A stretch of 64,000 nucleotides of DNA from Antedon mediterranea (Eukaryota > Echinodermata > Crinoidea > Comatulida > Antedonidae). Below the pieces are notes generated by a model. That model did no database searches. It was not told the DNA's origin and saw only the letters and a program-made list of their open reading frames with translations. Positions 35,751 to 64,000 of the stretch are shown here, in pieces (within the stretch, counting starts at the first letter, position 1; each line of letters starts with the position of its first letter). The DNA lies in assembly GCF_964355755.1 (NCBI RefSeq), contig NC_092676.1, positions 10,026,288-10,090,287 of the forward strand, read 5' to 3'. A program made the translations under genes and the position numbers.

Positions 35751-35970
35751 AATCCAAAGGCAAATTACTGAACAAATGACAATGCTATGGGTATCAGTGG
35801 CTGGATCCCAATGGAGATACAAAAAAAAGCGAAAAGCTAAATCCAAACGATAAAGTAAAACAGCCAGAAAAGTTAGCAGAGCTTTCGGGCAACACTAGCC
35901 CTTCATCAGTGCAAGTGAAGGAATTTGGATAATGTCAAGAACTGGCAAGTGCTGCCTGGGTGGACAGGAA
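35716..35970 (-). repeat. Penelope terminus with hammerhead ribozyme core; AT microsatellite
   Basis: An (AT)n run lies at 35725-35750. From 35745 to about 35855 the sequence is the reverse complement of 55590-55695 (shared phrases CAAAGGCAAATTACTGA, GACAATGCTATGGGTATCAG, GGATC.CAATGGAGATACAAA), so it is a dispersed element end. At 35875-35909, minus strand, the hammerhead core reads CTGATGA, a GGGC/GCCC stem II with loop, GAAA, then a 3-bp stem III (AGC-TCT-GCT). Penelope-like retroelements are known to carry such ribozymes in their terminal repeats. Confidence 0.7.
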
Positions 35971-39249: not shown

Positions 39250-39626
39250 TTTATAACAACACAATTATACTATTTGTAGTAGAATTCACCGCACTGTTAA
39301 TTACAATTTACCAAGCATTTGTTATTCTTTTTTAGCACTTTTCATATCTATTAGAGGATTTCATTTGATTATAAATGTTACCATATTATCAAAACTACAA
39401 AATTTAACATATATCCCTCGAATAAGCACCTCCCTCAAATGACCTCCGCCTCCCCAAAGGGCCCTACCAAACAATAAAAACTGTACTTTAAAATGTTATT
39501 AATCATCTAAAACACTGTGAAACAAAGTAGTTTAGTTTTACGAATGTCAAGCATTTTCAATAATGGTAACCGACAGAAAACGTATAAGGAGAACATTATC
39601 ATTCCGAGAACCATCGTCTACACTTC
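39250..39626. other. Intergenic, nothing recognised
   Basis: AT-rich. GATGGTTCTCGG-type sequence (complement of about 39606-39616) is shared with the flank of the second conserved-loop hairpin (63621-63632), so this is probably part of that repeat family. Confidence 0.4.
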
Positions 39627-39663
39627 CTAGAGGGGGAGCGAGCGAAGCGAGCTCACCCTCTAG
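39627..39663 (+). repeat. 37-nt hairpin, conserved loop, copy 1
   Basis: Arms CTAGAGGGGGAGC and GCTCACCCTCTAG pair over 13 positions (one G-T) around the loop GAGCGAAGCGA. The second copy at 63571-63607 has the same 13-11-13 layout and the same loop but mostly different arms. Function is unknown. Confidence 0.75.
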
Positions 39664-39797
39664 TGTTCCTAATGTTAAGTACAAAAGGTTTTGTGGTTTT
39701 AAGTTGTAATTCCCAGTGGTTTTCTTTGTCTTTGCGAGTTTTGTCGCTCCATTTGACATCGTGGTCTATTGCAATAACTCTGAAATTTGCCACATAT

Positions 39798-39871
39798 GGC
39801 TCTGTGGTCTAGTAGTATGATACACTCGCCCTGTAAGCGAGAGGTTGCAGGTTCGAATCCCGCCAGAGACA
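39798..39871 (+). tRNA. tRNA-Thr(UGU)-like sequence, probably pseudogene or SINE head
   Basis: The 74-nt cloverleaf has an acceptor stem GGCTCTG/CAGAGAC with discriminator A, an anticodon stem CTCGC/GCGAG, and T-arm GCAGG-TTCGAAT-CCCGC. A-box TGGTCTAGTAG and B-box GGTTCGAATCC are intact, and a TTTT Pol III terminator lies at 39874-39877. The anticodon would be TGT (Thr). Against a working tRNA are position 33, which is C instead of the near-universal U, and mismatches in the acceptor (G2-A71), D (C12-T23) and T (A51-C63) stems. CCA is not encoded, as is usual in eukaryotes. Confidence 0.55.
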
Positions 39872-40644
39872 CCTTTTCATACAACTAAAACTATTGATAT
39901 GTTGTTTCGTTCTCATACGGAGAGTGTTTTATTGGGGCGACTTTTTCTCATTCTCACAGATTTCCTCATCTTCATCGTTTCAAATTAATTAATTAAATGT
40001 CAGTATATCACCGGGCGGTTTAGAATTAATGTTCTTTGCCCTGATGTGTTTATATATATATAAGTATCTCTTCGGAGATCCCGCTTTGTGAATAAAAATA
40101 CTGAATAGTAGTACAGGAAAACTATGAAATATGGTTGAAAAAATTGCAACAGAATTTATTTCACCACAATGCATTTCTATAAGGTCCCTATATGAACATA
40201 CTAAAAGTCTAGAAAAATCCAGGTAGGGGAAATAGGTTTTTTAAAACAAAATGGCCGCCAATGGCGAAAATGCCTAAAAAAGGACAAAAAAAACATAAAT
40301 GATAGATCTAATTACCACTTTATAACAGTTTTTACAATGGTTTATATATTTCTTTACAGTTTCGAAGATCTGAACTACAATATACACATTATTTTAGGTG
40401 CTGTTAATTAGAAAATGACCGAAAAACAAATGTTTAAGTATCTAGATATATCTCTATTGTTATAATATATAAAACGCAGTCCTTCCTATGCTTAATGCAT
40501 AGGATTAAGGTGTCTAATAATAAATCAGTTCATTTACATTTGTACTGTTATAACAATATATTACGACATTGGTCGTGCCAGTGGGGAGGGGTATAGAGAT
40601 GGGAGATAATATGGGAAGGGTGAGGGAGTCTGTCCAGCCCCCTT
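39872..40644. repeat. Dispersed-repeat copy 40137-40280 and imperfect hairpin 40484-40517
   Basis: ATTGCAACAGAATTTATTTCACC through AAATGGCCGCCA matches the repeat at 25250-25545 and 18638-18900. An imperfect hairpin around TCCTATGCTTAATGCATAGGA lies at 40484-40517 and resembles the one at 41995-42040. Otherwise nothing is seen. Confidence 0.55.
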
Positions 40645-41800
40645 TAGATACTTTCTATCCCTAGTCTGTGGGTGGAAGAGAATTTCCTATCCACTGCTAT
40701 ACCTGGTAATAAAGACTCACGAAATGAAATTTTGCAGCAAGGGAATAGATTTGCTTTTTGCAACTTTCTCAAAGAAAAGTAGGCTGTCTAAAGTCTCCAT
40801 TGACTTCCCTCCATACGGTAGCTACCATCCAATGCCAAATTCCTGATGCAATGTTTTCTTTCTTTTTTTTAACTGTTTGGTTTACAGAATTTGACATACA
40901 GCTCTAACTGTGATGTGATGATTTTTAAGACCAACACCTTTTCCTAAACCAAATTTACTTACGGCCCATAATTACAGCCATTAAACACAAGAGTTTACTT
41001 TGCCTTCACTGCATAACGTAACAAACATACATGTTACATAATAAATGTCTTGAAATGTTGCTGTTTCGGGCCAAGAGGTTTGATGTAGCAGTGCTCCCCC
41101 GTTGATAACATACAGTGGGCAGTGAGATGAAGGTTTCTGAGTAGTCTAGCAGTGTGTATGGAGTCAATGGAGTAAAAGAGGGCTGCAGGAAAAGTACAAG
41201 GTTCTTTTTCAACAAATGATGCATTGTGTATGACTGTCTCACATAGCCATCAATGATGGAATAGTATATGTGAGGGAATGTGCACTGCTTCTCTATTGAT
41301 GAATATGGTTGATTTTGATCCATGTATAATAATATGTTCTTTCCTCTTAAATTTATATTATGTCACGGTTGCTTCATTCATTGATTTAATACCGTATGTT
41401 CTCGATGGGGGAGCATTGTAAATGCATGTAAAGTCTTTCCTTGGTGTGAAGCTCTGTAAAAATTAATTTGCTTTTTATACATGGAATTCAGGGATGTGAT
41501 ACTACATCCCATCTATTTGGTATAGGAAAAGGTGTTAGTCTTAAAAAGTCATAACACCTGGGCAGTAGTACCAAACCATCGCATCAGAGGAATTGGCATT
41601 GGTAGCTATATACTGTATGGAGGAATACGTTCTGGGAGAAAGTAGCAAAAAGCAAAACAGCACTTAAAATAAAGTCTATTCCCGCAACAACAAATGCTGC
41701 AAAATGTCATTCCCTGCGTGTATATTACCATGGTACAGCAGTGGATAGAAAATACTCTTCAACCCATAGACTGGGGGATGGAAAGTTACAAATGGCGTGA
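40645..41800. repeat. 1.15-kb imperfect palindrome (foldback)
   Basis: Left-arm landmarks TAGTCTGTGGGTGGAAGAG (40661), ATCCACTGCTATACC, GAAATTTTGCAGCA, CATACGGTAGCTACCATCC and CACCTTTTCCTAAACCAAAT recur as reverse complements in reverse order between about 41520 and 41775. A GTGCTCCCCCGTTGATAACATA block (41091) matches the complement near 41396-41417. The centre is about 41250. A frame at 41006-41323 (minus) spans the centre and looks non-coding. It is probably a decayed long-TIR element. Confidence 0.7.
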
Positions 41801-41994
41801 TGTGTCCATTGACGACAAATTTACCACCAGTACCACTGTTTGTGACGAATACCACGGCATCAGCACATGCTTAATTCCTACCTATAGACAGAGGATGATA
41901 ACTGGACAATGAAAATAAATGGATTAATAGATTGTAAGTTTGTATAATTCTATTGTTGTGACAGTAGCCTACAAATGTAAATGAGCTGTTTTAT

Positions 41995-42040
41995 TAGACA
42001 CCGTAGTCCTGCATTATAATGCATAGGACTACGTTGTCTA
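41995..42040. repeat. 46-bp hairpin / mini-MITE
   Basis: TAGACACCGTAGTCCTGCATTA pairs with TAATGCATAGGACTACGTTGTCTA with two small bulges. Its relative at 40484-40517 sits on the other side of the 1.15-kb palindrome in the same orientation. Confidence 0.6.
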
Positions 42041-42229
42041 TTATTATAAGTTAAAGTTGGCTGAAAGGTTAATGTTGTTGTTCCTTGTAGTGTGCAATTT
42101 TTACTTTTATTTACCAAACTGTGTTAATTCACCTAACACAATCTGCAATTATTCAATTAATAACACTTACTACAATGGTCTGTGCAATATTTTACTGAGA
42201 TAGTCGTCTTCAAACGCACCAAAATTAGG

Positions 42230-42719
42230 CTATATTCGATCTATAGATACGATCTTGTTGATGCGGCTGTCAGGGACCTTGTCCCCACCATTAAAATTCG
42301 CAAAAAAAGTCATAAATGGTTTGATGCCGAGCGTGTGAAAGCCTTAAAATCTAAAGAACATTACCATCGTATATGGAAACAATTTCCATCCATCATTTCA
42401 CGTCAAAACTTCTGTGTTGCCAGAACTAATTTCAAAAAATTATCAAATTGTAAATATAAGGCTTACCTGAAATGCATCTCCTCTGACCTTGTTGCAAATC
42501 CTAAGCGATTTTGGACTTGGATCAAGTGTAAACGAAAAACTAAATCAAATGCAATAAGTATCTCTGATGGGGTTAGGGTTGCTGACAGCCCGCAAGCAAA
42601 AGCCACACTATTTAACAACTTTTTTGTTTCAGCTTTCTCGGACTCCAGGGATACTCCTATTGCCGAGCATTTAGATCTGCCTGAACTCAACGTTGATACA
42701 TTTTGGACATCGGTGAGTT
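42230..42719 (+). pseudogene. LINE fragment, linker between EN and RT
   Basis: The frame beginning at 42182 contains KKSHKWFDAERVKALKSKE, then FKKLSNCKYKAYLKCISSDL, NPKRFWTWIKCKRKTK, and KATLFNNFFVSAFSD. This is the tract that links endonuclease to RT in jockey/CR1-type ORF2. Both flanking domains are missing. The 3' break is near 42712, just before the next LINE. Confidence 0.8.
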
Positions 42720-42779
42720 AGATTGATCAAAATCGTTTAAGTTAACCAAATACTTAATTGACGTCCATGATCATCATTA

Positions 42780-43595
42780 TTGTTTCACTGCCTGTCGTTT
42801 AGTTGTTGTTGGTATGTCATGATAAAACAATTCATATTACATTGTATAAATTGTAATTTATTGCACATACTTGTTAACTTAGGCTATATAGTGTTAACTA
42901 TTCTCTGCTGCTGTAAGCAGCTTGCTCAGTTTTATTCATTAGTCATTTCCTTTTCTGTCTAATTTAAATGTTTGAATGTGACCTTTTTGATAATGTAAAT
43001 GTGAGCACAGAATATTTTAACGAAGATAACTTAATTTCTTCACTTGAACATTCTAATTTATCATCAAACTTTTCTATATTTGGACTAAACTGTCGTAGTG
43101 TTGTTAATAAGTTTGACTTAATCTCAAACTATTTAGACTCACTCGTACATGCCTTCTCCGTCATTGCCTTCAGTGAAACCTGGTTAACCGAAAAAGATAA
43201 TATTAATCTATACCAGTTACCAGGCTACAGTTTGATTCACACTGATAAGAGAGGTGGTGGGGTAGCGTTCTATGTTACCAACAAACTAACATATATTATT
43301 AGAAATGATCTGTCATCTTGTATGACTGAAGCAGAGACTATCTTTATTGAGATTGAGTTAGAATCAGGAAATAATGTTATTTGTGGTATAGTTTATAGAC
43401 CACCCTCACGTTCCTTGCAAAAGTTTGATGATGAATTATTTTTTTATTTTTATTTCAACTTTATTTATAGAGGGTAACCCTTCCAGCTGAACCCGCAGGC
43501 CAGCTGATATTCAGGGGCCCTCTTAAAAATGACAAAGTATATAAAACTATACTTAACTAATACGAATCTACTATATACATTTAAATTTAAAACTA

Positions 43596-43646
<51 letters not shown>

Positions 43647-45782
43647 AACATGTGTAATGCAAATGATTAATCTAGAAAAAAAGAAAGCTTACCTTGTGGG
43701 AGACTATAACATAAACTTACTCCAACAATCTACCGACAACACTATCCAATCACACTTAGACACAATATTTTCTCAGTCATTTCAGCCAATCATAAAAAGT
43801 CCTACTAGAATATCCGATAATTGTGCTTCAATAATTGATAACATTTATTGCAACATCGATTCTTTTACTACGTCCCTTAAAAGTGGAATACTTATTACTG
43901 ATATTTCTGATCACTTCCCAATATTCTGTGTAGATACTTTGGAAAAACATAATAAGCAATATCCTCGATTTGTATATAAACGACAATACTCTCCTCAACA
44001 AACGGAGTATTTTTTGCAAGAATTACAAAGCAATCAGTGGAATGATGTGCTATCCTCAAATAATGCGAATGTTGCTTATCAAAATTTTAAAAAAAAATTT
44101 AAATAAAACAATTGATAATTGTTTCCCTTTAAAACGAATTAGAAATAAGGCGAACAAGTTAAAATCTCCTTGGATCACAGCTGAAATTGCCAGAGCTATC
44201 TCTCAAAAACATAAATTATATAAAAAGTACAAACAAAATAACACCACTACTAATAAAAGTACGTACATACATTTTAGAAACAAGTTAACCACTACTATTA
44301 GAAATCGGAAAAAAAGAATATTATATGGTCCAGTTTGAACAAAATAAACAAGATATTAAAAAAACGTGGACAATCCTAAATGATATAATGGGTAGGGAAA
44401 AGACTACCAATTTGCCTACAAAAATAAAATTGGGTACTGAGACTTTCTCTGATAATGATGAGAAAGCTGATGCATTCAACTCTTTTTTTATTAATATTGG
44501 AGAAAAACTAAATAATAAATTTAGGCATGATTGTCAAAATGATCAAATCACCCATAGAACTTTCTTAAAGAGAAATTTTACCTCTTCAATGTTTTTTAAG
44601 CCTGTTACTGAACATGAACTTAACCACTATATTAAAAACACAAAGAATACTTCTCCTGGCCATGATGGTATAAGTGCCCAACTCATAAAATCTGCTTCCC
44701 CGTTTATTTTAAAACCTTTATTGCATTAATACGTCATTATCATCGGGCTGTGTCTCGGCTGATATAAAAATTGCTAAAGTTATCCCGGTATTTAAGAATG
44801 GTGACATCTCCGATATAAATAATTATCGGCCTATTTCCATTTTACCCTTTTTTTCCAAAATATTTGAGAGGAATGTGTATGATCAAACGATTTGTTACCT
44901 CTCAAAATATAACGTACTGAGTAAAACACAGTATGGGTTTAGACAACACCATTCAACTAGTCATGCTTTAATACAATCGATTGAAAAAATCACAAACGCT
45001 ATTGAGAATAAAGAGTTCACACTAGGAGTTTTCCTTGATTTATCAAAAGCGTTTGATACAATCGATCATGGTATATTATTAGATAAGTTAAGATTTTATG
45101 GTATAAGAGGAGTTCCGCTAAACTGGTTTTCAAACTATCTTAAAAAAAGACTAAAATACACATTTATTGTTAATACTGCATCTAGTAAAATGACAGTAAA
45201 CACTGAAGTTCCTCAGGGATCCATATTGGGTCCATTATTATTTCTTATATTCATTAATGATATTAGTCTAGCATGTAACCATGTAGACATGATTATGTAT
45301 GCAGATGACACAAATGTGTTTTATAGTCACAATGATATTACTCAAGCTTTTGATACAATGAACCAGGAGTTATCTATACTTTCGGACTGGTTTATTGCTA
45401 ACAAATTAACGCTAAATGTAAACAAATCAAAATATGTTATATTTAAGGCTAGAAATAAGTCAGCTGACACTACCTCACTAGAATTGAGGATGGGAAATGA
45501 ATGTATAGTAAAAGCTACTGAAGTTAAATTTCTAGGCTTATTTCTGGATGAAACTTTATCGTTTAATTTTCATGTAAATGAGGTAGCAAACAGTATTTCT
45601 AGAATAATTGGTGTCTTAAACAAAGTGAAGTCTATGTTATCAAGTAACATCTTGTTAACGGTATACAATGCACTTATATTACCTAGAATAACGTATGCTA
45701 TCACAGTATGGGGTGCTACTTCTGCTACAAGTTTAAACCGTATACATATTCTCCAGAAAAAAGCACTTAGAAATATTCAATA
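42780..45782 (+). pseudogene. CR1-like LINE ORF2, EN and RT, frameshifted and interrupted
   Basis: The endonuclease starts at 42968 (IFGLNCRSVVNKFD, IAFSETWL, RGGGVAFYV, VYRPPS). It is interrupted at 43437-43643 by a poly-A-tailed insertion and resumes with LVGDYNINLL and ISDHFPIF. The frame shifts near 44100, is reopened by a stop at 44336, and shifts again near 44730. RT covers TSPGHDGISAQLIK, NNYRPISILPFFSKIFER, motif A FLDLSKAFDTIDH, motif B VPQGSILGPLLF and an intact YADD (45298-45309). Motif E KFLGLFLDE and the post-RT ALILPRITYAITVWG follow. It ends at 45782, exactly where the foldback element starts. A hydrophobic frame (42780-42962) precedes it. Confidence 0.85.
43437..43643 (+). mobile_element. 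Short poly-A-tailed retro-insertion in the LINE endonuclease
   Basis: About 207 bp start with TTTATTTTTATTTCAACTT, contain AGAGGGTAACCCTTCCAGCTG and GGGGCCCTCTTAAAAATG, and end in a run of about 42 A (43602-43643). The GAGGGTA...GGGCCCT arrangement also occurs in the 3' tail of the minus-strand LINE near 19040-19090. It is likely a truncated LINE tail or SINE moved in trans. Confidence 0.65.
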
Positions 45783-48697
45783 GGGTTGGTGAAATCTGTC
45801 CATAATAGGTTACTTTTCTGTCCATAATAGGGGACTTTCTGTCCATAATAGGGACTAGAGGGCGCTGTTGTTTGTCCATAATAGGTAACTTTCATAATTG
45901 GCTGTCCAAAATAGGCGACTTTTTGTCCACAATAGGCGAGTTTATTGGAGTAGTGCGCCATCCATTGTGTTGTCCATAATAGGTGATTTTTTTGGCGTAC
46001 TCGTACATACGTAGTTTATTTCGCGAGTAGAAGTAATAGTATTATTAGTTAATACTAATTTGCTTTCTCTTCAGACTTCGAGGCTACCTAGGCCTAGCTA
46101 GTAGGAGGCCTAGGCCTAATTAGTAGGCCTACCTTACAGCAGGGAAGGAATACAAATGACATGGGCTCATATTAGGTAGATAGGTTTCCTACTACAAACA
46201 ACTAGGCCTATCCTCATTATCTGTTTTTTTATTATTTTATTTTTTTAATATGAATATTTTACAGACTAGGGCCTAGGCTAGGCCTACTCGTAACTATACT
46301 GCCTAACTGCAGGTCAGGTCTGGCGGACTAGTCACTATACAGTCTTTTACTAATACCACTGCCACCACCGCCCACTACTATACTTTGAAGACCGAAATCA
46401 GCTACTACTAGCCTAGTCTACTAGACCTATTGGTAGTTTGTCTTCAAATCACAGACATCTAGATTGCTAGATTGACCTATTTAAATTTTTGTTTTTTTAA
46501 ATTATTTTTTGAATGAATGAGTCTTATCCAGACAGTTCGGACAGTTAGTAGGTTGGCAGTATAGTAGAGCCAGAGCTATTGTTACTGTATGTTATTAATT
46601 ATGTCATCTATTTAAATCTCAATTTTTCCATATTTTTTGCATGTATCAAAGATTGTGTACAGTGTATCTTCTGATCAATGTTATAGTACAGTAGCATGGA
46701 CATTAACCAGGGTAAGTAACAGATAGGCCCAACTTACAATTGAAGAATAATACTTTACATACAACCCACTAGGCCTACATCTTTTAGGACATTTTTCAAT
46801 ATGACCAAGATACTGTAAAATCCCAAGAAGAAACCTATTTAGAAAAAGTATTTGTTTGCAAAAGTAATCTTCGGAAAAGAAGGATACAATTTAGTCAAAC
46901 ATTTTTAGAGAGACAAACTGAATTTTATCAGTACCGTAGTAGAAAAACTGACAATACATGAAAATTAATTTTTAACATTCTGATTTGAAATATTCTATTC
47001 ATTTGAATTGCTAAGAAATTAAAAGTAGATATTTTTTTTTTCATTCATTATAAACATTACAATCACAGTACAAAGAATAGATAAATCCACTAACAAATTC
47101 ATGCAGAAAATATTTCAAAATTTAATTGAATGTTATATTATTAAAGCATTCATTCAATAAAGCATTTGTCTTTAAAACATTTAATATCAGTTTTCATATA
47201 GTGAGTATGGTAATAATTGACTCTAACAACTGGTATAAACTTAAATTTAGTAAAACAATCCTACATATCTTTTTTTAAATGCAATAAAATATTTAAACAT
47301 AACTGTTTCCCACCATACTGTTTCCCACCATACAACATGAAAATTTGTCTCAGCATTACTAAGATTGAAGTTACTTGCATTATAAAATACTTAAACATTA
47401 TTATAGTATTTAAATGCTTCCTTTTTTTTTATTATAGGCATACAGATGTTTGATATTCTGCTCATATACAGTATGCTGCTCAAAAGAAAAAGTACATCAC
47501 TTCAACATATTATTTTTGATCATAATCATCGATCAATAATTATACTGTAGTAATAAACATAATAATTATGGTGCATTTTATTTATCCTTGCTATTTTTTA
47601 AATTGTAGTTTAACCATGTTTTTACACTTTTAAAATTAATATAATTCAGTATTTTTTTAATGTGATTTAGATTTTGAATAAACTGTTCTGAATACAGAAC
47701 AAAGGTGTTGCTTGTACACTGCGTGTATGTAAACTTGATTTATTGTCGTATTTCTTATTATTAAACATTAAAATTGATTCATTTAATTAAACAATATAAT
47801 AAATGGATGAGATGTGCTGCTGTTGATACACTTTAGACTGGGATGGTTTGTCATTGAGCTATGTGGATCCAGAATTTTGAAATAGGGGAGGACCTAAAAT
47901 GACGAAATGAAGTGCTGAACTGTGATGTCTTTTTCAATATTAAATTGATTTTTATTATTACTGTTAACAAAACAAAATAAGTCCAAAGAAAAAAAAAATA
48001 CAACAATTACATTGAAACACCAATGCATTTATAAAAATAACAGTTTACATTTTCATTATCTTAAAAAAATAAAACTTTATCAATATTATCATTAGAGTAT
48101 TATGGGGTATTTTTTATTTTTGTAAAAGAACGTGTGGGTTTGGTGATTTATTTAAACTTGCAATAGTATGGTAAGTTGCGTAATGTCTGTCCGTACTATC
48201 AAACCTAAAATGAAGTTCAAATTAAATTATTTGTTGCTGAATAAATTTCACATTTCATTATTATTAGTGGACAATAACAAATGGACTAGGCCTAGGCCTA
48301 GGCTAGTAGTACTAGTAGGCCTATAGAGGTAGCCTAACTAACAGGACTAGCCTAGCTAGGCCTAGGCTAGAAAGACTTAAATATTTATATACTAATTAGG
48401 CCTCCTAGGTAGCCTCGAAGTCTGAACAGAAAGCAAATTAGTATTACTTCTACTCGCGAAATAAACTACGTATGTACGAGTACGCCAAAAAAATCACCTA
48501 TTATGGACAACACAATGGATGGCGCACTACTCCAATAAACTCGCCTATTGTGGACAAAAAGTCACCTATTTTGGACAGCCAATTATGAAAGTCACCTATT
48601 ATGGACAAACAACATCGCCCTCTAGTCCCTATTATGGACAGAAAGTAACCTATTATGGACAGAAAAGTAACCTATTATGGACAGATTTCACCAACCC
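45783..48697. mobile_element. 2.9-kb foldback element with iterated TCCATAATAGG
   Basis: Terminal inverted repeats of about 300 bp (45783-46090 and 48400-48697) begin GGGTTGGTGAAATCTGTCC. Each arm has seven TGTCCATAATAGG-like repeats, two of them as CCAAAATAGG and CCACAATAGG, and then TTTTTTTGGCGTACTCGTAC, TTTATTTCGCGAGTAGAAG and CAGACTTCGAGGCTACC. TAGGCCTA clusters flank both inner edges. The interior is AT-rich and non-coding. No target duplication is evident. The left end truncates a LINE. Confidence 0.85.
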
Positions 48698-49440
48698 CGC
48701 TCAAACATCGAGTGCATGACCGCACGTGTGTGTGGGCTAGCCTCGCTCGATCCTTTTATCGAGAGGCGCACGTTTTCACGGAAAATCGTATTCGATTAGT
48801 ATCTATGTATCCTAGAAGTGTGTACGCTAGGTCTATGCTATAATCAACTGGAGAATATACTAGTCGAATACTGTACACCATGTGGTTGCCAAGAAGGGCT
48901 CGCTCGCGCTGGGGGTACGACGGTCGTGCGTATAACATATATAATACTATTCCAATCGTAAACGTTTACAAATGAAATTTTATCGGAGCGCCTAAAACAG
49001 CTCCATAATGAACAAATCTTTTCATCATATTTAGTACAAAATCACGCTAAAATGCCTTGAAAACTAGCAGGTTGCTGTTACGCTAGTACACTGTAGCTAG
49101 GCTAGGCCTACTCTTTAGTAATACTAAGTAATAGGCCTAGGCCTTACCTTAAAAAGCCCAGGCCTAGCCAACGAGGTGGCGATATCTACGTGTGTTGAGG
49201 CATTTATGTTCGGTGTATAAGACAATATTAATTTAGAGGTTAAATTTGCGTGTCAAAGTGCGATTATACACCGAAATATACGCTACGTTATTATTTTATT
49301 GTTTCATCCTCGCACATTCGATTTTTACACCTTTTCGGCCCAAAAAAATCATAAAAAAAAAATTTTTTTTAAAGCGCCCTCAACATAAAAAAAAAACTTT
49401 TTCTTATCTCCGCCCCAAATTTTTGGCGAAATAAGGGGCG
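48698..49440. other. No gene recognised
   Basis: A GC-richer patch (48700-48930) is followed by a TAGGCCTA cluster (49090-49170) and homopolymer-rich sequence to 49440. Short overlapping frames only. Confidence 0.4.
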
Positions 49441-54020: not shown

Positions 54021-54733
54021 AAAAAACGTCTGGGAGAAGAGAGTCAATATGAAAGCCTTTGCTGATAATACAGTATTATTGAGATGTAGACGGAAATCTG
54101 TAAAATCTTGTTCAATAAATAATAACTTCGTTTTTGCTGTCAACCAGGCCGGTATTATAATAAATTACTGTCAAATAATCATTCGATAATGGTCAAAACT
54201 TTATTTTGGCTCTGTCAACATAAAGGGAGGTATTTACAATAACTTTCTTTTGACTGTCAATCTAGGCCAATGTTATAATAATACGCCGTCAGATATTAAA
54301 TCATTGAAACAGTCCTGGTAAAATTTTTTTTGGTTATCAGATGCCGTGGGGGGGGGGGGGGTCCAATCAATTATCGTCAGAAGGTGAACAATCAGTCTAG
54401 GTAGCAGCAGCAGATTATTAGGAACGCCTGCTCCATTAATTAATCCAGAAAAAGGTTTGTACATTATCTATTTGTTTATTAGCCTTCTCCTAACACAATT
54501 ATATTTTCTTTAAAAAAGGGTTTTATAAGTGGTTTCAACATTTATGATAGTAATGTCACAGTTCTGTGTCTGGACGCAACTTCATAGACCTACTAGTTAT
54601 ATTATTCATATTAACTGATACTTACTCTTCATTTACCGTAAAGTTCAGTTTTAATGAAATATATAATATAAATTGGCTTCGTAACAATTAATTATCGTTG
54701 AAAAGGTTAGTTTTTTGGTGATAGGTGAAAATG
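54021..54733. other. No gene recognised; G-run
   Basis: AT-rich spacer with a G-run at about 54348-54361. Nothing else is seen. Confidence 0.4.
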
Positions 54734-55079
54734 ACACTATGACGATAACGACGGACGATAAATATATAGCATGCATTTCTTTTACATAAACCAAAAGAAA
54801 TTAGAAAGGTTTTCGTTCTAGACCTATAGGATAATCATTTATGCTGTCTTTGATAAAAATAATGTTTTTCAAATTCCAATCAAATGACGTCATGATAAAT
54901 AAAAACAATAAAATCGCTGTATTGTCACGATATTATTGGTCTTACTAATCATGACGTCATTTGATTGGACGTGTGAAAATATAATTTTCATCAAAGGAAT
55001 TGTTTATATTTCTTTTAATTTATGTATTAAAAATGCACATTTGTCTATTTATCGTCGATCGTTATCGTCCTAGTGTATG
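54731..55079. mobile_element. 343-bp palindromic MITE
   Basis: The element 54734-55076 starts ACACTATGACGATAACGA and ends TCGTTATCGTCCTAGTGT, with ATG on both sides (54731-54733 and 55077-55079). The inner arms include a perfect inverted 20-mer around CAATCAAATGACGTCATGA near 54880 and its complement near 54945. It is non-coding. Confidence 0.75.
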
Positions 55080-55227
55080 GGCCTTATGCTGTAAATGTTC
55101 AATTAATTGATCATTCCGATTTTATTAGTTGGACTCTTGCACAGTTGCTGTCTAATCGTTGTTGTGTAATATCATTTCGAACCATATGTGGCTGTGCATG
55201 GAAGTCCGGTCTACAAAAACTCGGGCC

Positions 55228-55559
55228 CGGGATATATATATATATATAATAATACCACATTTATATAGCGCCCTTTTCATGAGTAATCATGCTCAAAGGC
55301 GCTTTACAAGCATTATTACCCCAGTATTTGTTTTGGAATCAAACACGTATGGAAACATACTCCCATAATGCAGCCGGTAACCAGCGCAAAGTTGTGTCTA
55401 GATCTAACTGGGTACCCATTTATACACCTGGGTGGAGAGAGGCAACGTAAGTAAAGTATCTTGCCTACGGATACAAGCAATGCGATGAGAGTTGGATTCG
55501 AACCTAGGTCTGACGATCGGTAGTCCAACTTCCAACACACTGCGCCACACGCCCGGATC
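55228..55559 (-). mobile_element. tRNA-derived SINE
   Basis: Minus-strand order: a tRNA-like head at 55557-55490 (A-box TGGCGCAGTGTG, B-box GGTTCGAATCC), a body with GTAGGCAAGATACTTTAC and CACCCAGGTGTATAAATGGG, and a tail TGTAAAGCGCCTTTGAGCA, then AAAAGGGCGCTATATAAATG and TATTATTATATATA. The GCGCTATATAAATG...TATTATT ending is typical of tRNA SINEs of marine invertebrates and fish. The repeat-rich end abuts an AT microsatellite (55233-55248). Confidence 0.85.
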
Positions 55560-55830
55560 ATTGTTATTGGGCCTGTTTACTTTATCGTTTTGATTTAGCT
55601 TTTCACTTTTTATTTTTGTATCTCCATTGAGATCCAGCCACTGATACCCACAGCATTGTCATTTTTTTCAGTAATTTGCCTTTGGATTTATATATATATA
55701 TATAATTATAAATCAAAGAGCTGCATAGGCAGGATATAGAAAAAAATCAAGATCAAATAAGTTAAAACTGCCTCAATATAGATTTATTTTAACGACATGT
55801 TTCGGGCATAGCCCATCATCATTATATATA
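55560..55830. repeat. Two Penelope-type terminal fragments
   Basis: 55590-55695 is the reverse complement of 35745-35855, so it is a copy of the same terminus, cut by the SINE. After an (AT)n run a different terminus follows. It contains TGTTTCGGGCATAGCCCATCATCA (55798-55821), on the minus strand a hammerhead-like TGATGA, GGGC-TAT-GCCC stem II and GAAAC, with A in place of the first core C. Confidence 0.6.
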
Positions 55831-55854
55831 TAATTATGTTATTATACAATTGAA

Positions 55855-56280
55855 AGCAAAACCCGTTGAATCTCAAATCATTAGGACTAGAAATTTGGCT
55901 TATCAATCAAATAAATACTTTCGTTCAAAATAAAACTCCAACCTCTCTAAAAGATTGAACTCGAAAACGGACCGTTTTTTGAATTGGGTATGTTGAAACA
56001 TTTCAATATTCATTTAAAAAAGTACATTAATTATGGTATTGATCAGTGGCTATAGAGGCGTAAAAACCCTCGGTCAATATCATATAAAATGCACTGTGGA
56101 AGGGTCATTATTAAGACTGCAAAATTGGGCTTATCAACAAATAAATACTTTCGTTCAAAATGTAAAATCAAGGCTGAAAAATTGGGCTTATCAACAACAA
56201 AATATTTTATTATTAGATGCGATAACATCAAGGATAATCAGTATAATTATTAATATAGCCACTGTTACTAGTTTTATTCT
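55855..56280 (+). repeat. Dispersed repeat R1, copy 1
   Basis: Landmarks are GGCTTATCAATCAAATAAATAC, ACGGACCGTTTTTTGAATTGGG, GGTATTGATCAGTGG, AAAAACCCTCGGTCAATATCAT, CACTGTGGAAGGGTCATTATTA, and two AATTGGGCTTATCAACAA units. They recur in order at 60560-61010 and, in part, at 61200-61330. The LINE at 56290-60365 lies between copies 1 and 2. Confidence 0.75.
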
Positions 56281-56289
56281 ACATTCTAA

Positions 56290-59200
56290 AGTAAATAGGG
56301 TTTCAAGGTTGTCACAGCCGGGAGTGGTATTGGGGTTAAGCTCCCTTTACCTAAAAAATGCTCCCATACGGTGTGCGTCTCAAATAGCCTCTGACAACTA
56401 AAAGTCCAACTCCTGGCCTGCACGAATGGCTTAGTTCTTTCTTTAAGCCTGGCGAAACCTGCTTGCTACTGACAGGAGAAGGGACGAAGGCGAGCCACTG
56501 GCGCCTCAAAACCAGAAGCTTACTTGGACAGGTGGAGTTCATCAGCCGTGACAGGCAGTTCACCTAGGAGAAGGAAAACTCTGATTTCAAACCTCCGCTG
56601 CCTTGCGGCTATATCCATCCTGGAAAAGGCTTCAGGAGTAAACCTTAAGGACAAATCCGGAGTGAAGCCCCTAAGGTGGTTTGGAACATTGACTCGATCT
56701 CCTTCCGGCAGCTTCTGCAGCCAAACTGGTACCATACGTATTGCTCTGCTCTCCTATGGACTTTATCGGTAAAGGCCGAGAGGGGGATTCTGCTGACTGG
56801 GCATCGCAGGGTCCCCATATTTTTCTTCGCCCAGGCGTGCGCCCTGGAGAGGTCACTTCAGTGCTGTTGTAAAAAACGGCTAAAATCCACACGGGAGACA
56901 GCAGTTTACGAGTGATAAGCCAAGACCAATTGGCGTAGGTCAAGGCGCTACGGGTTGTCTCCGACGGTGGGAGGGACCATCGCAGTCCCACTGGTCAGCT
57001 ATCACCCGCCTCAAGCCGAGCAGCCCTCGGCCAGTAAGATGCTGACCCGCCACAGTCTGCCTGCTTCAATGGGTGCTTGGAGCTTAGGATTCTTCCGACA
57101 AGCGGACTGTAACTACTGCACCAGGCAAAAGATTAAAGAAAAGACTAAAGAATACTACCTTGCGATTTGCAAGCTGGAATGTCAGGACCATGTGTCCTGG
57201 CTTTTCAAACGACCCACGAACGACCAATGACTTAAGAAAGACAGCTATCATCAACCGTGAGCTCAAGAGGCTCAACATCGATATCGCTGCATTACAGGAG
57301 ACAAGACTCCCCTCGGATGGCAGTATAAGAGAAAGGGACTACACGTTCTTTTGGCAGGGGTTGGAACCTGACCAACCACGACTCCATGGAGTGGGGTTCG
57401 CTGTTAGAAACTCTCTTGTAGCATCAGTCGAACCACCATCCAAGGGCACCGCCCGAATCCTCTCACTCCGCCTATCAACATCTTCGGGCACAGTAAACAT
57501 CTTGAGCATCTATGCACCAACTCTTTGCTCAACACCCGAGTCTAAAGATGAGTTTTATGAAGAGCTGGACTCTGCCATCAGAGGAATCTCAGACACAGAA
57601 CATCTGTATTTGCTTGGCGACTTCAACGCCCGTGTGGGATCTGACCATTATTCCTGGCCCAGGAGCATTGGACATTTTGGTGTAGGAAGACTAAATGAGA
57701 ATGGCCAGAGGCTTCTGGAGCTCTGCAGTTATCATGACCTCTGCATTACCAACACATTCTTCTCCACCAAGCCTCAGCACAAAGTGTCCTGACGACATCC
57801 AAGATCTCACCACTGGCATCAACTAGATCTCGTCATCACTCGAAGATCTTACTTAAATTACGTAAACATCACTCGCAGTTACCATAGTGCAGACTGCGAT
57901 ACTGATCACTCTATGGTGCGCAGCACAGTGTGTCTCAAACCAAAGCAAATTCATCGCTTCAGGCACATAGGATGCCCACGCATCAACACAGCTAATACCA
58001 ATCTGCCAGACCTGTGCGCTCGTTTTGCCCAAACCATCGATAAAATGCTGAAAGACTGTCCAAAAGCCAACTCTGAAATGAGATGGGCTCATATTCGTGA
58101 TGCCATCTATACCTCCGCCAAAGACATCTTCGGCGTGAAAGAGAGGAAAACCCCTGATTGGTTTGAATCAGGAATTTCTGCGATGGAGCCAGCTTTAGAG
58201 GCAAAGCGTGCAGCGCTAATTGACTACAAAAGAGACCCTTCAGAAAGAACACTAGAGGCTCTTCGTAAAGCTAGAAATAACTCTCAAAAGATAGCTCGAC
58301 AGTGTGCCAACCAATACTGGTTGAACCTCTGTCAAGATATTCAACTCTCTGCTGATCATGGCAACACTGGCGCCATGTACGCTGGTATAAAAAAGGCCTT
58401 TGGACCTAGTGCAACGAAGATCGCACCATTAAAGACCGCCTCTGGTACCATCATAACTGATCGTGGAAAGCAGATGGAGAGATTGGTAGAGCATTACCAA
58501 CAACTCTACTTGAGAGAAAACATTGTCACTGACTCAGCCATTGAGTGCATAGATTATCTCCCCATAATGGAAGAGCTCGACAATCCACCTACACTGGCGG
58601 AACTAAGCAAGGCCATTGATATCTTGGCTTGCAGTAAAGCCCCAGGAAAAGACGGTATCCCACCAGAGGTCCTCAAGGCTGGTAAACGCTCCACATTATT
58701 ACTACAAAACCTACACGAGCTTCTGCTACAATGCTGGGAAGAAGGCTCAGTACCCCAGGATATGCGTGACGCAAACATCGTTACACTGTATAAGAACAAA
58801 GGCGATCGCAGCGACTGCAACAACTATCGTGGAATATCCCTTCTTAGCATAGTGGGTAAAGTCTTCGCACGTGTTGTACTAACTAGATTACAATCACTTG
58901 CAGAACGTGTCTATCCTGAAGCCCAGTGCGGCTTCAGAGCTGGAAGATCAACCATCGACATGATATTCTCAGTGAGACAACTACAAGAAAAATGCCGTGA
59001 GCAGAGGCAGCCCCTGTACATTGCCTTCATAGATCTAACGAAAGCCTTCGACCTTGTCAGTAGGAAAGGTCTCTTCTCCCTACTACAAAGGATCGGATGT
59101 CCTCCAAAGCTTCTGGGAATAATCACCTCCTTTCACGAAGACATGCACAGCGTTGTGCAGTATGATGGCTCATCTTCAGATCCTTTTCCCATCAAGAGTG

Positions 59201-60365
59201 GAGTAAAGCAGGGGTGCGTTCTCGCGCCTACACTCTTCGGCATATTCTTTTCCCTGTTACTATCATATGCCTTTCGTCAGTCAAATGAAGGAGTCTACCT
59301 ACATACTCGAAGTGACGGAAATCTCTTCAACCTTGCCCGCCTTCGCGCAAAGACCAAGGTGCGACGTCTACTTATTAGAGAGTTGCTCTTCGCTGATGAC
59401 GCTGCCATCACAGCCCACAGTGTAGAAGCACTCCAGCGCCTCATTGACTGCTTCTCACATGCATGCGAGGAGTTTGGCCTTACCATCAGCCTTAAGAAAA
59501 CGAACGTTCTAAGTCAAGACGCAGCCAATGCTCCTCCTAAGATCAAAATCGGCGATCATACTCTTGAGGTGGTGGACAAGTTCATTTACCTTGGTTCCAC
59601 TGTTTCCAGTAACCTCTCATTTGACGCCGAACTCAACATCAGGATTGGAAAAGCGACATCAGCCATGGCTCGCCTAACAGATAAGGTTTGGAAAAACCGC
59701 ATGCTGACTATAAACACCAAGATGAAGATCTACCAGGCTTGTGTCCTAAGCACCCTATTGTACAGCAGTGAATCATGGTCTCTTTACACCCGCCAAGAGC
59801 GCAGATTGAGTTCATTTCATCTGCGCTGCCTGAGAAGGATACTCGGCATCAAATGGCAGGATCATGTCTCAAATAAAACCGTTCTAACTCTGGCAAGTTT
59901 GCCCAGCATGTACTCACTACTTACCCAGAGACGCCTTCGATGGCTGTGCCATGTAAGGCGCATGATGGATGACGGAAGAATACCAAAGGACTTACTCTAT
60001 GGTGAGCTTGTCACTGGAACTAGACCTAAAGGAAGGCCCATGTTACGCTTTAAAGACGTATGCAAGCGTGATCTTAAGTCGGGCAACACAAACGTCACAA
60101 ACTGGGAGGCTGTTGCCTCCGATCGCAGTATGTGGAGATCCACTATCAAAATGTGTGTCCAAACAAGCGAGAGTGGACGCGACAAGAAACGGACGCTACT
60201 CAAGAAACGTAGAAAGGAGAGAGCATCCTCTGCTCCAACCGATCAGGAGCCAACGTACATCTGCCCAAAATGTGACAAATCATGCCGCTCAAAAATTGGA
60301 CCCTGCACCGAATGACGGATAGAGGGCGCATACCTATTGTCTCTCGAGACAGACGGCTGCCAACA
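56290..60365 (+). mobile_element. Near-complete APE-type LINE, one nonsense codon
   Basis: A GC-richer 5' UTR (56290-57130) precedes the ORF. The APE endonuclease frame is 57160-57792 (ASWNVRTMCPG, AALQETRLPS, GVGFAVRNS, YAPTLCS, LLGDFNARVG). A TGA at 57790-57792 stands where the frame otherwise reads on without shift into WHQLDLVITRRS, DTDHSMV and the 800-codon RT frame (57913-60315). RT has KAPGKDGIPPEVLKAG, CNNYRGISLLSIVGKV, motif A FIDLTKAFDLVS, motif B GVKQGCVLAPTLFG, motif C FADD and YLGSTVS. It ends in a CPKCDKSCRSKIG zinc-knuckle start whose usual C-terminal His/Cys part is missing. The tail contains GTCTCTCGAGACAGACGG. The first codon of the listed frame is TTG, and the frame is open upstream to a TAG at about 57087. 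The clade is unresolved (RTE/I-group-like). Confidence 0.85.
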
Positions 60366-60559
60366 AAAGTAAATAAAAATCCACTAGAAAACAAACAAGT
60401 CTGAATGTTATGCTTATTAGCCATGTTATGTTTGTTACTGTATGCCTATGATTGTTTGCAACAAAAAAGACGTGTGAGGTTCTTTCTTTAGATTTTGAAG
60501 AATGATTTGTGTTACAGGTTGACACATGAGTCAAATGCTCAAGATATCGGCTAACGCCA

Positions 60560-61330
60560 TGGGACCCTTGGCTTATCAATGAATAACAAATACAGTACTA
60601 CTTTGTTCAATTGAAATCGGAATCTGACCGTTTCATTAAATTGGGTGTGATTAGGCCTAAACATATAATAATTTATTAAAAAGGTACAATAAAAACAAAT
60701 GCATCAGAGGTGTAAAGAACCCACGGTCAATATCATGTAAAATGTATATGGTATAAGCACTGTGGAAGGGGTCATTATTATTAAACTGGAAATTCGGCTT
60801 ATCAACAAATAAATACTTTCGTTTAAAATGTAAAATAAGACTGAAAAATTGGGCTTATCAACAAATAAATACTTTTGTTCAAAATTTAAAATAAGACTGC
60901 ACAATTTGGCTTATCAACAAATAAAATACTTTTTTTTTCAAAATGTAAAATTAAGACTGGAAAATTGGGCTTATAAACAAATAAATACTTTTTTTCAAAA
61001 TGTAAGAAAACATTTTTTAAATATAATCCTTAAGCTCTGTCTATACTATCAAACTAAATATGATGTGCCCATATTATATAGACATGACGATGTCCACTAC
61101 GATATTCGGGCATATCACTACCATATTTGGGCACATCACACTTTTTTTGTTAAACTAGTTGGGACAGTGTAGACAAAGAACTATGTGATCGAAACATAAG
61201 TCGGAATTGGACTGACGCGATTGATTTAATTGGGTATTTTAATTAATGTAATGATTCATTAAAAACTATAATACCGATACGCGTTTGGTATTGATCAATG
61301 GTGCAAAAAACCCTGAGAAATAATGGTATA
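60560..61330 (+). repeat. Repeat R1 copies 2 and 3 with a 56-bp tandem array
   Basis: Copy 2 (60560-61010) repeats the landmarks of 55855-56280 and ends in four tandem units of about 54-60 bp (starts near 60787, 60841, 60897 and 60957). Each has GGCTTATCAACAAATAAA, ACTTT and CAAAATGTAAAATAAGACT. Copy 3 (about 61200-61330) has ATTGGGTATTTTAATTAATG, GGTATTGATCAATGG and AAAAAACCCTGAG. A MITE lies between copies 2 and 3. Confidence 0.75.
61033..61182. mobile_element. ~150-bp MITE, AGCTCTGTCTA...TAGACAAAGAACT
   Basis: Left end AGCTCTGTCTATACTATC and AAACTA match, as an imperfect inverted repeat, the right end AACTAGTTGGGACAGTGTAGACAAAGAACT. TA stands at both borders. A relative interrupts the Penelope pseudogene at about 4950. 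Confidence 0.65.
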
Positions 61331-61910
61331 ACGCGATTTGGTGATAGCTTAGCAATAGTACAACCCATATACTATTATTATAAATACCTATTACAAATCC
61401 ATTCATATAACTTTTCATCGCGAACCGAAAATGTATAAATGTTATTCTATAGACAGTAATTATATATTCAAAAGCCATATTATTATTATTATCAATACCT
61501 AAATGCGATAGTAATAACCACATAAACATAAATTATTCCCAATACAAGTTTGTGCGTTTAATTCTAGAAAGAAACGACTGTGCTGACAGCCCAATGACAT
61601 AAATCACAAGTAAAGTCCCAATTGTTCACTTGCGTTTTGATTGGCCGACCTATTATATTAGATTAATGAAGACTGTCCAGTCAAAAAGTTACGCGGCGTT
61701 TTTTGTAAGAAATATTTCTTGTTTATGATGCAATGCCTCGTCCATATCTGACGAATCGCCAGATTCGTCAGATACAGCTCCGTGCGCAATGATGCGTATC
61801 CATATTTTCCGTTCGTGTATTTTGTATATCGTTCGTAATTTATACTGCTAAAATTTGTTAGTTTCTTTAGTTTTTAGTTTAGCAGAATTAAATTAGTAAT
61901 ATGAGATGAT
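61331..61910. other. No gene; 13-bp perfect hairpin at 61745-61774
   Basis: TATCTGACGAATC, loop GCCA, then the exact complement GATTCGTCAGATA. Stem-loop function is unknown; no T-run follows. The rest of the stretch is unremarkable. Confidence 0.6.
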
Positions 61911-62650
61911 AATTTATTTGTCACGAATCAGGCAGTTCGAAAACGAATTTTATTCATATTTTACTTTGGCTTGACAATGAGCGCAGCAAGTTGTTGATAT
62001 CGCTTTGGTCCTTGGATGCACATGAAACGGAGCCTCGCCGCATGATGTGGGTGGTGGATCGACTCCGCGTGCTGGACGTCGTGAATATAGAGGCTTCCGA
62101 CGGCCGTTGAAATAGAATATTGCAATGGCGTGAGTAATTTTCGCTAATTTACCATGGTATCTTAAAATTTCGTTTTTACTCAAAATACTATACATTTTGT
62201 TTTTATTTGTATGGGTTTGTGTTAATTTGATACATTTAAATAACATGTGTGAATTTCTTGAAAATCGAAATTCCATTTCAGGTCCATTTTAACAGATTTT
62301 ACAACGAACTCACTCTGGAAGAAAATATGCAATTGTTGAAATCGGTTTTGACGAAGTCAAAGGTGACTTGAACACACCATGTAAGGAATTGGAAATATTT
62401 AATGTGAATGAGTTAAGAAGTAAGTCATTAAACGGTCGGATTCACTCTTAAATGGTGCAATATTAGCCGTGCATAAAAAAACTTCTTGAATATTTCCCGT
62501 CCCATGCTAATTCCAAGCTACAGTATAATTGTTTTATATTTCATGATATGTAAGTTCACTCGTTGATCAAATAGAGTATGTGCCTGAGCAGTATCGATCT
62601 GAAATTCTTCAAGATGCTACTAAATGGTGCTTCGAGAACTTTACAGTCAC
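61911..62650 (+). other. Possible exon-like segments, unrecognised
   Basis: Three segments look more coding-like than their surroundings. (a) 61916-62109 on plus has an open frame (LLISLWSLDAHETEPRRMM, VVDRLRVLDVVNIEASDGR) and a GTGAGT at 62130; the minus strand is open there too. (b) 62282-62370 follows TTTCAG and reads FNRFYNELTLEENMQLLKSV. (c) 62575-62647 follows CAAATAG and reads YVPEQYRSEILQDATKWCFE, ending TGA, then GTAATA. Each ends in a stop near a donor, so they do not join cleanly. They may be remnants of a decayed gene. Confidence 0.25.
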
Positions 62651-63570
62651 CAATTGAGGTAATAAATTATATTGATTATACTTTGCATGGGCAAGTATAT
62701 AAAAACCGCACGATAAAGTGCTTTGACAAATTATTAAAATAAAAACAAATTGTATCACGAATAAAATTAGGAACTACTGCCATTGATTTTTTTTATACAC
62801 TACGGTATCCCTTCACTTTAAAATAAATGTAGGCTAAAAAATTAAAGCAATAGTGGATATGGAAATTTAGACTTTACATTTGACTGTTCAGACTTTACGA
62901 AAATAAAAGACGCTAAAGAAAATTGTGCTGTGTGAATTAGATGATGCGCGCAAACACTAACGAAAGTATAAAATGCTAAACTATATTATTTTGGGGTGTT
63001 TTTTTCTTGATGTATGAATTATTTGATACATACAGATAAAATAAAAAAGTTTAACATAAATCGATTGAAAAATACATTGCTGCGGAAACACGAATTGTTA
63101 AGTTGTTTTCATGTTCAACAATATATAAAACCATTTGTAATCATTTTGTTTGTGTGTGTTTATTTTTATTCATTTACATTTTATTTTTATTTCAATTGTT
63201 CTGATATTTGTTAGCTATTTGCTACTTCTGTAATTACATCGTGGTCTATAGCAGTAACCCGTGCTCCACACCGTCTTGTCTGCCTTAATAATAATTTTCA
63301 TGGGATGAGTATAAGTATAAAAGCACAATACTGTATATGGGATATGAAAGTGGCAACGTGCATGAGAGGTGCACGTTTTGAAGTATGTCAATCAGTCGGC
63401 AGATTAAAACATTTTAATGAAAAAATATGAATATGAAATAAATTATAAAATAATTACGGACACAAAAAGTTGCAATTTTTTTGTGTGTGAGGTTTCGTGT
63501 CTTTTTCGCTAGTTTTTTAATTACATTATGGTCTAGTTTTGATTTAAACGGTGATACTTAATTATAATTA
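62651..63570. other. No gene recognised; flank of hairpin copy 2
   Basis: AT-rich. ATTACATCGTGGTCTATAGCAGTAAC at about 63232-63257 matches GACATCGTGGTCTATTGCAATAAC at 39756-39779, placing both hairpins in one repeat family. Confidence 0.45.
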
Positions 63571-63607
63571 CTAGATGGTACGCGAGCGAAGCGAGCGTAC
63601 CATCTAG
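63571..63607 (+). repeat. 37-nt hairpin, conserved loop, copy 2
   Basis: CTAGATGGTACGC and GCGTACCATCTAG are perfect 13-bp arms around GAGCGAAGCGA. Layout and loop equal those of copy 1 (39627-39663). Confidence 0.8.
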
Positions 63608-64000
63608 GTCGTGCCCGCAGATGGTTCTCGAATACATAGTAATTTAATAGTAAAAAATCTGGCGATTTCAAATAATAATAAGTAGACACAATGATTTATG
63701 TAGTCAACCAAAATTAGCACCCTGGGAATTACTTCCGAAAGAGAAACTTACCACAAAATGAGTCCAAATTGTTTATTCATTTAAAGAAACCCAATTAGGG
63801 TTGAGGGATGGGAAAGAGGATAGGTACAAAGAGGAACAATTTTTAAATATATTCTTTATCCACGTCAGTAACGAAATATTGTTTTCATTTTTTATAGGCC
63901 TATAAATAATATACCACTAACGGTGACTAAATATAGTAAAACATTTGCGATTTAATACTTTGTTAAAACTGTCACTGTCATAGGCGATTGAAATAGTAAA
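63608..64000. other. No gene recognised
   Basis: GATGGTTCTCGAAT at about 63621-63634 resembles, inverted, the flank of hairpin copy 1. Otherwise AT-rich sequence without features to the window end. Confidence 0.4.

Follow-up and report, generated by a model that had tools for sequence, protein, structure and literature searches.

Canonical Helitrons (Helitron1; Helibat/Helraiser) are described as carrying a 5′ TC, a 3′ CTAG and a 3′ hairpin, inserting at A|T with no duplication of the target, preferring AT-rich DNA, most strongly on the 3′ side, and encoding a RepHel transposase of about 1450 aa (PMC4778049), all of which is shared by the system described here. In the same description of Helraiser, a mutant of the hairpin loop behaves like deletion of the hairpin, and a stem swap retains about 90% (PMC4778049). 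Helentrons, Helitron2 and HINE (DINE-1) elements are described with a palindrome near the 3′ end and abundant non-autonomous copies (PMC4067079, PMC3627910, PMC5148889), features that also recur here. Outside transposons, small hairpin-loop inversions of 11–24 bp have been noted in chloroplast genomes (cited in PMC12928735), and template-switch loop inversions, in which a short loop is turned between inverted repeats, have been described (PMC8794818). The two hairpins analyzed here join these subjects: with high confidence, we assign them to the 3′ ends of non-autonomous Helitrons of two related families (T-type and G-type), which are probably mobilized in trans by RepHel and whose loops probably become inverted in place.

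Hairpins, flanks and element ends

The window, i.e., the whole 64-kb stretch of DNA analyzed, contains two 37-nt hairpins with an identical loop, GAGCGAAGCGA, at 39627–39663 on the plus strand (loop 39640–39650) and at 63571–63607 on the minus strand (loop 63584–63594), as the first-pass annotation had reported. The loop has two exact occurrences in the window; in shuffled sequence, with at most one mismatch allowed, loop matches averaged 0.22 and two matches arose in 2 of 100 shuffles, so that the loop by itself is only moderately unexpected and the argument depends on the hairpin as a whole. The claim that both hairpins still pair is correct for the second (13/13 pairs) and needs amendment for the first, where 12 of 13 pairs form and pair 9 is a G·A mismatch. 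The flanks are indeed related in inverted orientation: the subterminal motif CGAGAACCATC, conserved in related copies, lies at 39605–39615 on the plus strand, and its reverse complement, reading GATGGTTCTCG on the plus strand, at 63620–63630, i.e., the motif on the minus strand. The reversal of the loop relative to this flank between the two copies is likewise real; the first hairpin combines a G-type stem with the normal loop orientation, and the second a T-type stem with an inverted loop.

A genome-wide search for CTAG-N9-GAGCGAAGCGA-N9-CTAG, as the annotation had proposed, returned 1712 hairpins (861 + 851) in the 354-Mb genome, against 0 and 0 for the pattern read backwards. Both window hairpins coincide exactly with the 3′ ends of non-autonomous Helitrons, which bears out the earlier suggestion of a mobile-element terminal hairpin; the alternative suggestion of a recognition site is compatible with this, since by analogy a Helitron 3′ end would also act as one. 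The two elements and related copies end in CTAG (CTRR in Helitron1), and the DNA beyond the hairpin varies from copy to copy, with T first in 137/137 rows, a base that the search patterns did not require. At the other end, T- and G-type elements begin with TCTATATATAA, in accordance with the 5′ TC of Helitron1 (the L028 copy begins with TCTAAATATAA), and the base before the TC in 17 readable copies is A in 13, T in 2 and G in 2 (head-to-tail junctions). Of 92 flanks, 92% have A at position +9 after the 3′ end. The hairpin is terminal, at distance 0 from the 3′ end and with CTAG included, rather than 10–12 nt upstream as in Helitron1, and the elements are for this reason labeled a Helitron1-like variant.

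The G-type element extends from TCTATATATAA to CTAG at 36154–39663 on the plus strand, as delimited by the 5′ end common to related copies and by empty-site copies, and is interrupted by an unrelated, nested high-copy repeat of ~2.15 kb at 37098–39245, where most matches span query positions 399–2546 or nearly so. The host target follows at 39664–39673 (plus strand), with T at +1 and AAT at +8 to +10. The proposed comparison of occupied and empty loci was carried out for this copy: among the matches listed, 40 of 45 cross the junction and five short pieces fall short of it, and with a shorter query 40/40 cross. All four empty sites inspected at single-base resolution lack a gap at GGGAGTA|TGTTCC, demonstrating for this one copy insertion between A and T with no target duplication. 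The T-type element is represented by its 3′ part, at 63571–64000 on the minus strand, with the host T directly following its CTAG at 63570 (minus strand), as in related copies; similarity to full copies runs beyond the window as far as roughly position 64501, at which point some 380 nt of the 5′ part are absent.

Stem covariation, loop and transposase

Stem pairs co-vary between hairpin versions, with the loop unchanged. Three of 13 pairs are altered on both sides, and the covariation score was equaled in 1 of 500 shuffles (37 of 500 for changed-pair counts alone). The retention of pairing under changed sequence, recognized from the two window copies, holds over five stem versions, with exceptions at pair 9 (two) and at pairs 10 and 12 (one each). 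Constancy of the loop is partly built in because the hairpins were mostly found via the loop, and a loop-free search served as check. Within the loop lies d(GCGAAGC), a DNA mini-hairpin of exceptional stability. Calculated DNA folding energies for the T-type hairpin are −14.0 kcal/mol with the normal loop versus −13.6 kcal/mol with the inverted loop and do not separate the orientations, hence the case for the mini-hairpin is based on melting data from the literature. These observations suggest that the loop is the part recognized and that the stem need only pair; with their stems altered by evolution and the loop retained, the copies parallel in nature the mutant experiment on Helraiser.

Two near-identical RepHel-bearing copies, on C1 and C5, carry a third hairpin version at their 3′ ends, with 99.3% identity up to within 18 nt past the hairpin and divergence thereafter. 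The C1 copy has an intact 1439-aa open reading frame that matches Helraiser (7lcc, E = 1.2e-254); its GLPHVH aligns with GLPHAH of the Helraiser HUH motif, and Tyr663 and Tyr667 align with Tyr727 and Tyr731, both tyrosines of the Y2 pair. The open frame of the C5 copy comprises only 1132 aa. On their 5′ side, where the two copies were compared, tandem ~337-nt units occur, as does a further repeat beside one copy. The loop was not found in the stretches examined around other, partial RepHel matches, with up to two mismatches for L043, L044 and L045, and up to one for L127/L128, L129/L132 and L131. One further candidate, L046, was rejected as a T-type autonomous relic, since its hairpin is part of a T-type element that has a 5′ part of its own and lies beside a RepHel remnant. 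Judging from sequence, a Helraiser-like RepHel that the genome still encodes probably mobilizes the T- and G-type elements in trans; the likeness of these elements to the RepHel copies is established at the 3′ end, so this assignment rests on the last ~60 nt.

In the proposed mechanism, RepHel would nick at the 5′ TC, and the helicase would peel off one strand, on which the single-stranded 3′ palindrome would fold into a 13-bp stem, a tandem G·A step and the GCGAAGC mini-hairpin. The folded hairpin may then act as a rolling-circle terminator that pauses the machinery and offers CTAG for the second cut, upon which the strand would be inserted at the A|T step of an AT-rich site that has AA at +8/+9. 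Where the inverted-repeat arms are perfect, an inter-strand template switch during host replication of the palindrome could occasionally turn the loop in place, and the second hairpin of the window would be a product of such an event.

Recurrent inversion of the loop

Genome-wide, 42 ends have an inverted loop, among them the second hairpin of the window, versus 1528 with normal orientation. None of the 42 has a G-type or wobble stem; wobble-stem copies, which show no inversions, are also younger. In the larger tree, 40 inverted rows require 30 changes of orientation, 12 of them forced by strongly supported branches, and over 200 bootstrap trees the number ranges from 29 to 31 with a single origin in 0%; a smaller first tree, in which inverted rows clustered, gave 21 changes with at least 5 forced, the count being dependent on tree sampling. 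By these counts, loops are inverted about 2 to 3 times as often as a single loop base is changed. Inverted copies look somewhat older than canonical ones, with median end branches in the larger tree of 0.0236 (38 rows) versus 0.0094 (45 rows; p = 0.002), or 0.0194 (33) versus 0.0095 (43; p = 0.03) for perfect arms only, a contrast in which the canonical copies come from one chromosome and the bootstrap of the larger tree had not settled. Because of the 30 changes for 40 copies and the somewhat greater age of inverted copies, we conclude that inversion is recurrent, apparently having happened many separate times, and that it probably takes place in situ, after insertion, with a template switch between perfect arms as the most likely route. 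The family constitutes a natural mutation experiment: a single nuclear genome holds more than a thousand copies of the same palindrome, and in these, loop inversions can be counted and their frequencies with perfect and imperfect arms compared.

Parvovirus terminal palindromes fold back, self-prime and are resolved to give a flipped hairpin. Inversion of the loop during transposition, with the 3′ end folding back, self-priming and being resolved by the HUH nuclease so that the new copy receives a flipped hairpin, appears unlikely here, even though similarity identifies the transposase as an HUH nuclease, the palindrome extends to the 3′ terminus, leaving a base-paired 3′ OH that could self-prime, the target junctions of inverted ends are ordinary (T at +1 in 38/38, A at +9 in 36/38), and the like-for-like age contrast is just moderate. 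Inverted copies nonetheless look older, and flipping of the whole palindrome should not require perfect arms, which is difficult to reconcile with the stem types of the 42 inverted ends. An invertible end in the parvovirus sense, flipped by self-priming and HUH resolution during replicative transposition, is slightly more doubtful still; if true, this Helitron would use a rolling-hairpin step alongside or instead of simple termination.

Spread of one old subfamily by transposition would account for the clustering in the first tree and for a few small groups composed solely of inverted rows; it is, however, contradicted by the larger tree and its bootstrap and is very improbable. Even less credible is a site of another recombinase (a tyrosine or serine recombinase, or an IS200/605-like transposase) in place of a Helitron, for although such elements are described as having terminal hairpins and causing no target duplication (PMC3627910), the TC/CTAG ends and A|T insertion speak against it and the RepHel copies with their related 3′ end contradict it. 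A structured RNA under selection, raised by the first-pass annotation and in keeping with the covarying stem, finds no support and is hardly conceivable, given that an Rfam search of the window matched a single nearby tRNA and neither hairpin, that the hairpin stops exactly at a DNA insertion junction, and that the dispersed copies show transposon anatomy.

Comparison with known systems

Loop inversion at a Helitron 3′ end, probably in place, sets this family beside, and apart from, the systems outlined above. Among the openly accessible literature matches listed, no title concerns an inverted Helitron loop or a hairpin that includes the terminal CTAG, and among those listed for a text search with the loop sequence none concerns Helitrons. 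The Helentron/Helitron2 group differs in its T-rich (TT) target, as opposed to TC/CTAG ends and A|T insertion, and Helentrons differ in their endonuclease domain, none being found by Pfam in the 1439-aa protein. Loop inversions in chloroplast genomes and by template switching likewise turn a short loop between inverted repeats, whereas, unlike the chloroplast cases, the present ones affect a nuclear multi-copy transposon end with its parallel copies of the same palindrome. Compared with Helraiser, whose hairpin is described as 19 bp long and 11 nt from the end (PMC4778049), the hairpin here is 37 nt and terminal, and because it extends to the last base, CTAG occurs on both of its feet; the preference for A at +9 is also sharper than the Helraiser target preference as described (PMC4778049).

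Helitron ends and their target sites

The two hairpins proposed from sequence at 39627-39663 (+) and 63571-63607 (-) are present in both places, and their loop, described as identical, occurs twice in the window. A search of the genome (354 Mb, 18 contigs) with the pattern suggested in the first-pass annotation (CTAG, 9 nt, loop, 9 nt, CTAG) gave 1712 matches (861 and 851 by strand), and the backwards control gave 0. The first hairpin ends a G-type and the second a T-type element, two related non-autonomous Helitron types with different stems. In 22 copies (20 fetched and the two in the window), one side of the hairpin is common within types and the other is variable between copies; two copies, L015 and L016, are alike upstream as well as downstream, which suggests a duplication. 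On the conserved side, a form of CGAGAACCATC and a short spacer lead up to the hairpin, and comparison of larger stretches places the 5' start of the shared part at TCTATATATAA.

Of 18 copies examined at the 5' end, 17 are readable, L027 having a replaced 5' end; 13 of the 17 are preceded by A, 2 by T and 2 by G, and both G cases are head-to-tail junctions, with CTAG of one element abutting TC of the next. Such junctions make up 7 of 137 rows on the 3' side. The base directly 3' of the hairpin is T in all 137 rows, whose loci were found with patterns that did not require it. Further into the host, counted from the 3' CTAG, A occupies position +9 in 92% and +8 in 73% of 92 distinct flanks, a set retaining rows only with exact flank and loop match, for which 16 loci, including 8 with RepHel (the Helitron transposase), gave no row. 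Head-to-tail Helitrons were observed in four stretches (L027, L030, L031 and L032), joined as CTAG|TCTATAT with zero host bases between them, as expected for rolling-circle concatemers.

The G-type Helitron at 36154-39663 is inserted within another repeat, and the comparison of occupied and empty loci that had been proposed could be made here. With its joined flanks as query, 40 of 45 matches listed cross the junction (query 1-377 or 5-377), the remaining five being short pieces that end before it; with a shorter joined-flank query, 40 of 40 matches listed cross. Base-by-base reading of four copies showed no gap in any of them at GGGAGTA|TGTTCCTAATG, and therefore the element inserted between A and T without target duplication, as shown for this one empty site. 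The host repeat (about 35904-36153 and 39664-39790) is high-copy, with 91-93% identity in 40 places among matches listed; just outside it, 134 bp beyond the first hairpin, lies a tRNA-Thr gene (anticodon TGT, 39798-39873). The Helitron itself contains a nested repeat of ~2.15 kb (37098-39245) with ends CAGTGGGA...TCCCACTG, for which 45 matches were listed including itself (92-100% identity, some partial), and which has no ORF longer than 136 aa.

RepHel-bearing copies

The Helitron N-terminal domain was matched 87 times in a genome scan, and longer stretches for five of these and pieces around four more were inspected. One stretch, L042 on contig C1, has an uninterrupted frame for a 1439-aa protein that carries Helitron_like_N and PIF1 domains and matches the Helraiser structure 7lcc over residues 94-1420 (E 1.2e-254). 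About 750 nt past the stop codon comes GAGGACCATTCGGGTACACCCA, followed by a hairpin in which the loop is the same and the stem is a third version; the next base is T. A second copy, on contig C5, has an open frame of 1132 aa; the two are 99.3% identical up to within 18 nt past the hairpin and divergent beyond, and the third-stem hairpin was found at these copies only (up to 2 mismatches allowed). About the last 60 nt are common to the T and G types and the RepHel-bearing copy. The loop was not found in the other RepHel stretches inspected, all partial (L043-L045, L127-L129, L131 and L132). In L042 (about 7598-8065, minus strand), reading by eye picks out a possible short extra ORF upstream of the RepHel frame. 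Another RepHel family, with dozens of copies whose open frames are roughly 3,000 aa long, e.g., C1:14509036 (L043), looks like a second, recently active Helitron-like group.

Loop inversion

With the flank (the conserved motif upstream of the hairpin) fixed, the normal loop occurs at 1528 ends and the inverted loop at 44, of which 2 were dropped for an unrelated flank; the second hairpin of the window is one of the remaining 42. All 42 are T-type, 37 with perfect arms and 5 with point changes. G-type stems, or those of the wobble type, a further stem version, number 0 of 42; the first 100 normal ends listed include 23 G-type and 21 wobble by hand count. A loop-free search (flank, outer CTAG feet, any 27 nt, then T) gave 1724 ends; subtracting the 1528 normal and 42 inverted ones leaves about 154 with other loop changes, or about 14 per loop position. 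From total counts, inversion thus has roughly three times the frequency of change at a single loop base, and about twice in the first 100 loop-free ends listed (2 inverted, 11 otherwise changed, 87 normal); the rate is rough because the three patterns counted differ in feet and final T.

A tree of 105 rows (65 canonical, i.e., with normal loop, and 40 inverted) omits L085 and L086 as duplicates and the canonical L004 and L008, removed by hand because of a very long branch in an earlier tree. It requires 30 state changes (bootstrap range 29-31), of which well-supported branches force at least 12, and shuffled labels do about equally well (97 of 500 as low), with the bootstrap not settled and two rows on long branches. 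The earlier 89-row tree required 21 changes, of which 5 or more were forced; its labels were clustered (0 of 500 shuffles as low), so that some inverted copies are probably related to one another. End branches are longer in inverted than in C1 canonical rows (0.0236, n = 38, versus 0.0094, n = 45; p = 0.002), also with perfect arms in both groups (0.0194, n = 33, versus 0.0095, n = 43; p = 0.03), and inverted ends stand at ordinary target junctions (+1 T in 38/38, +9 A in 36/38). Together these observations point to repeated inversion, probably after insertion. Inversion during transposition is a possible alternative, its odds raised slightly by the weaker age contrast in the like-for-like comparison.

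For post-insertion inversion, template switching during replication across the perfect 13-bp arms would invert the loop, and the zero inversions in other stems support this. Wobble copies, however, are also younger by nearest-neighbour divergence (0.67%, n = 21, versus 2.33%, n = 63); G-type copies are not (2.33%, n = 13).

Stem, loop and known systems

Across the five stem versions, pairing holds in 93.8% of cells, a value as high in 3 of 500 shuffles; 3 of 13 pairs are altered on both sides, a count that 37 of 500 shuffles reach. Only 1 of 500 attains the covariation score, and sliding the partner destroys it. The test comprises five related sequences, few in number and all found via the loop, so loop sameness across them is built in. 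No second common loop was found among the first 100 loop-free ends listed. The strand ending in CTAG contains GCGAAGC, and the flanking GA/GA steps we take to resemble tandem sheared G.A pairs. DNA folding favours the normal T-type loop over the inverted one by no more than 0.4 kcal/mol. GCGAAGC forms a mini-hairpin with a melting temperature of about 78 deg C (PMC4686876).

The constant loop and variable stem agree with experiments on Helraiser, for which PMC4778049 reports that stem exchange retained about 90% activity and that loop change was about as harmful as hairpin deletion. The perfect 13-bp arms likewise agree with loop inversions at perfectly paired hairpins, attributed to replication template switching in PMC8794818, and with those of chloroplast genomes, with 11-24 bp arms (as cited in PMC12928735). 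The canonical Helitron hairpin is set back about 10-12 nt from the 3' end (PMC5148889 and PMC4067079), and that of Helraiser 11 nt (PMC4778049). Unlike these, the present hairpin takes in the last base and has CTAG at both feet; it is an unusual Helitron terminator, fully terminal, in which the loop varies less than the stem and is recurrently inverted.
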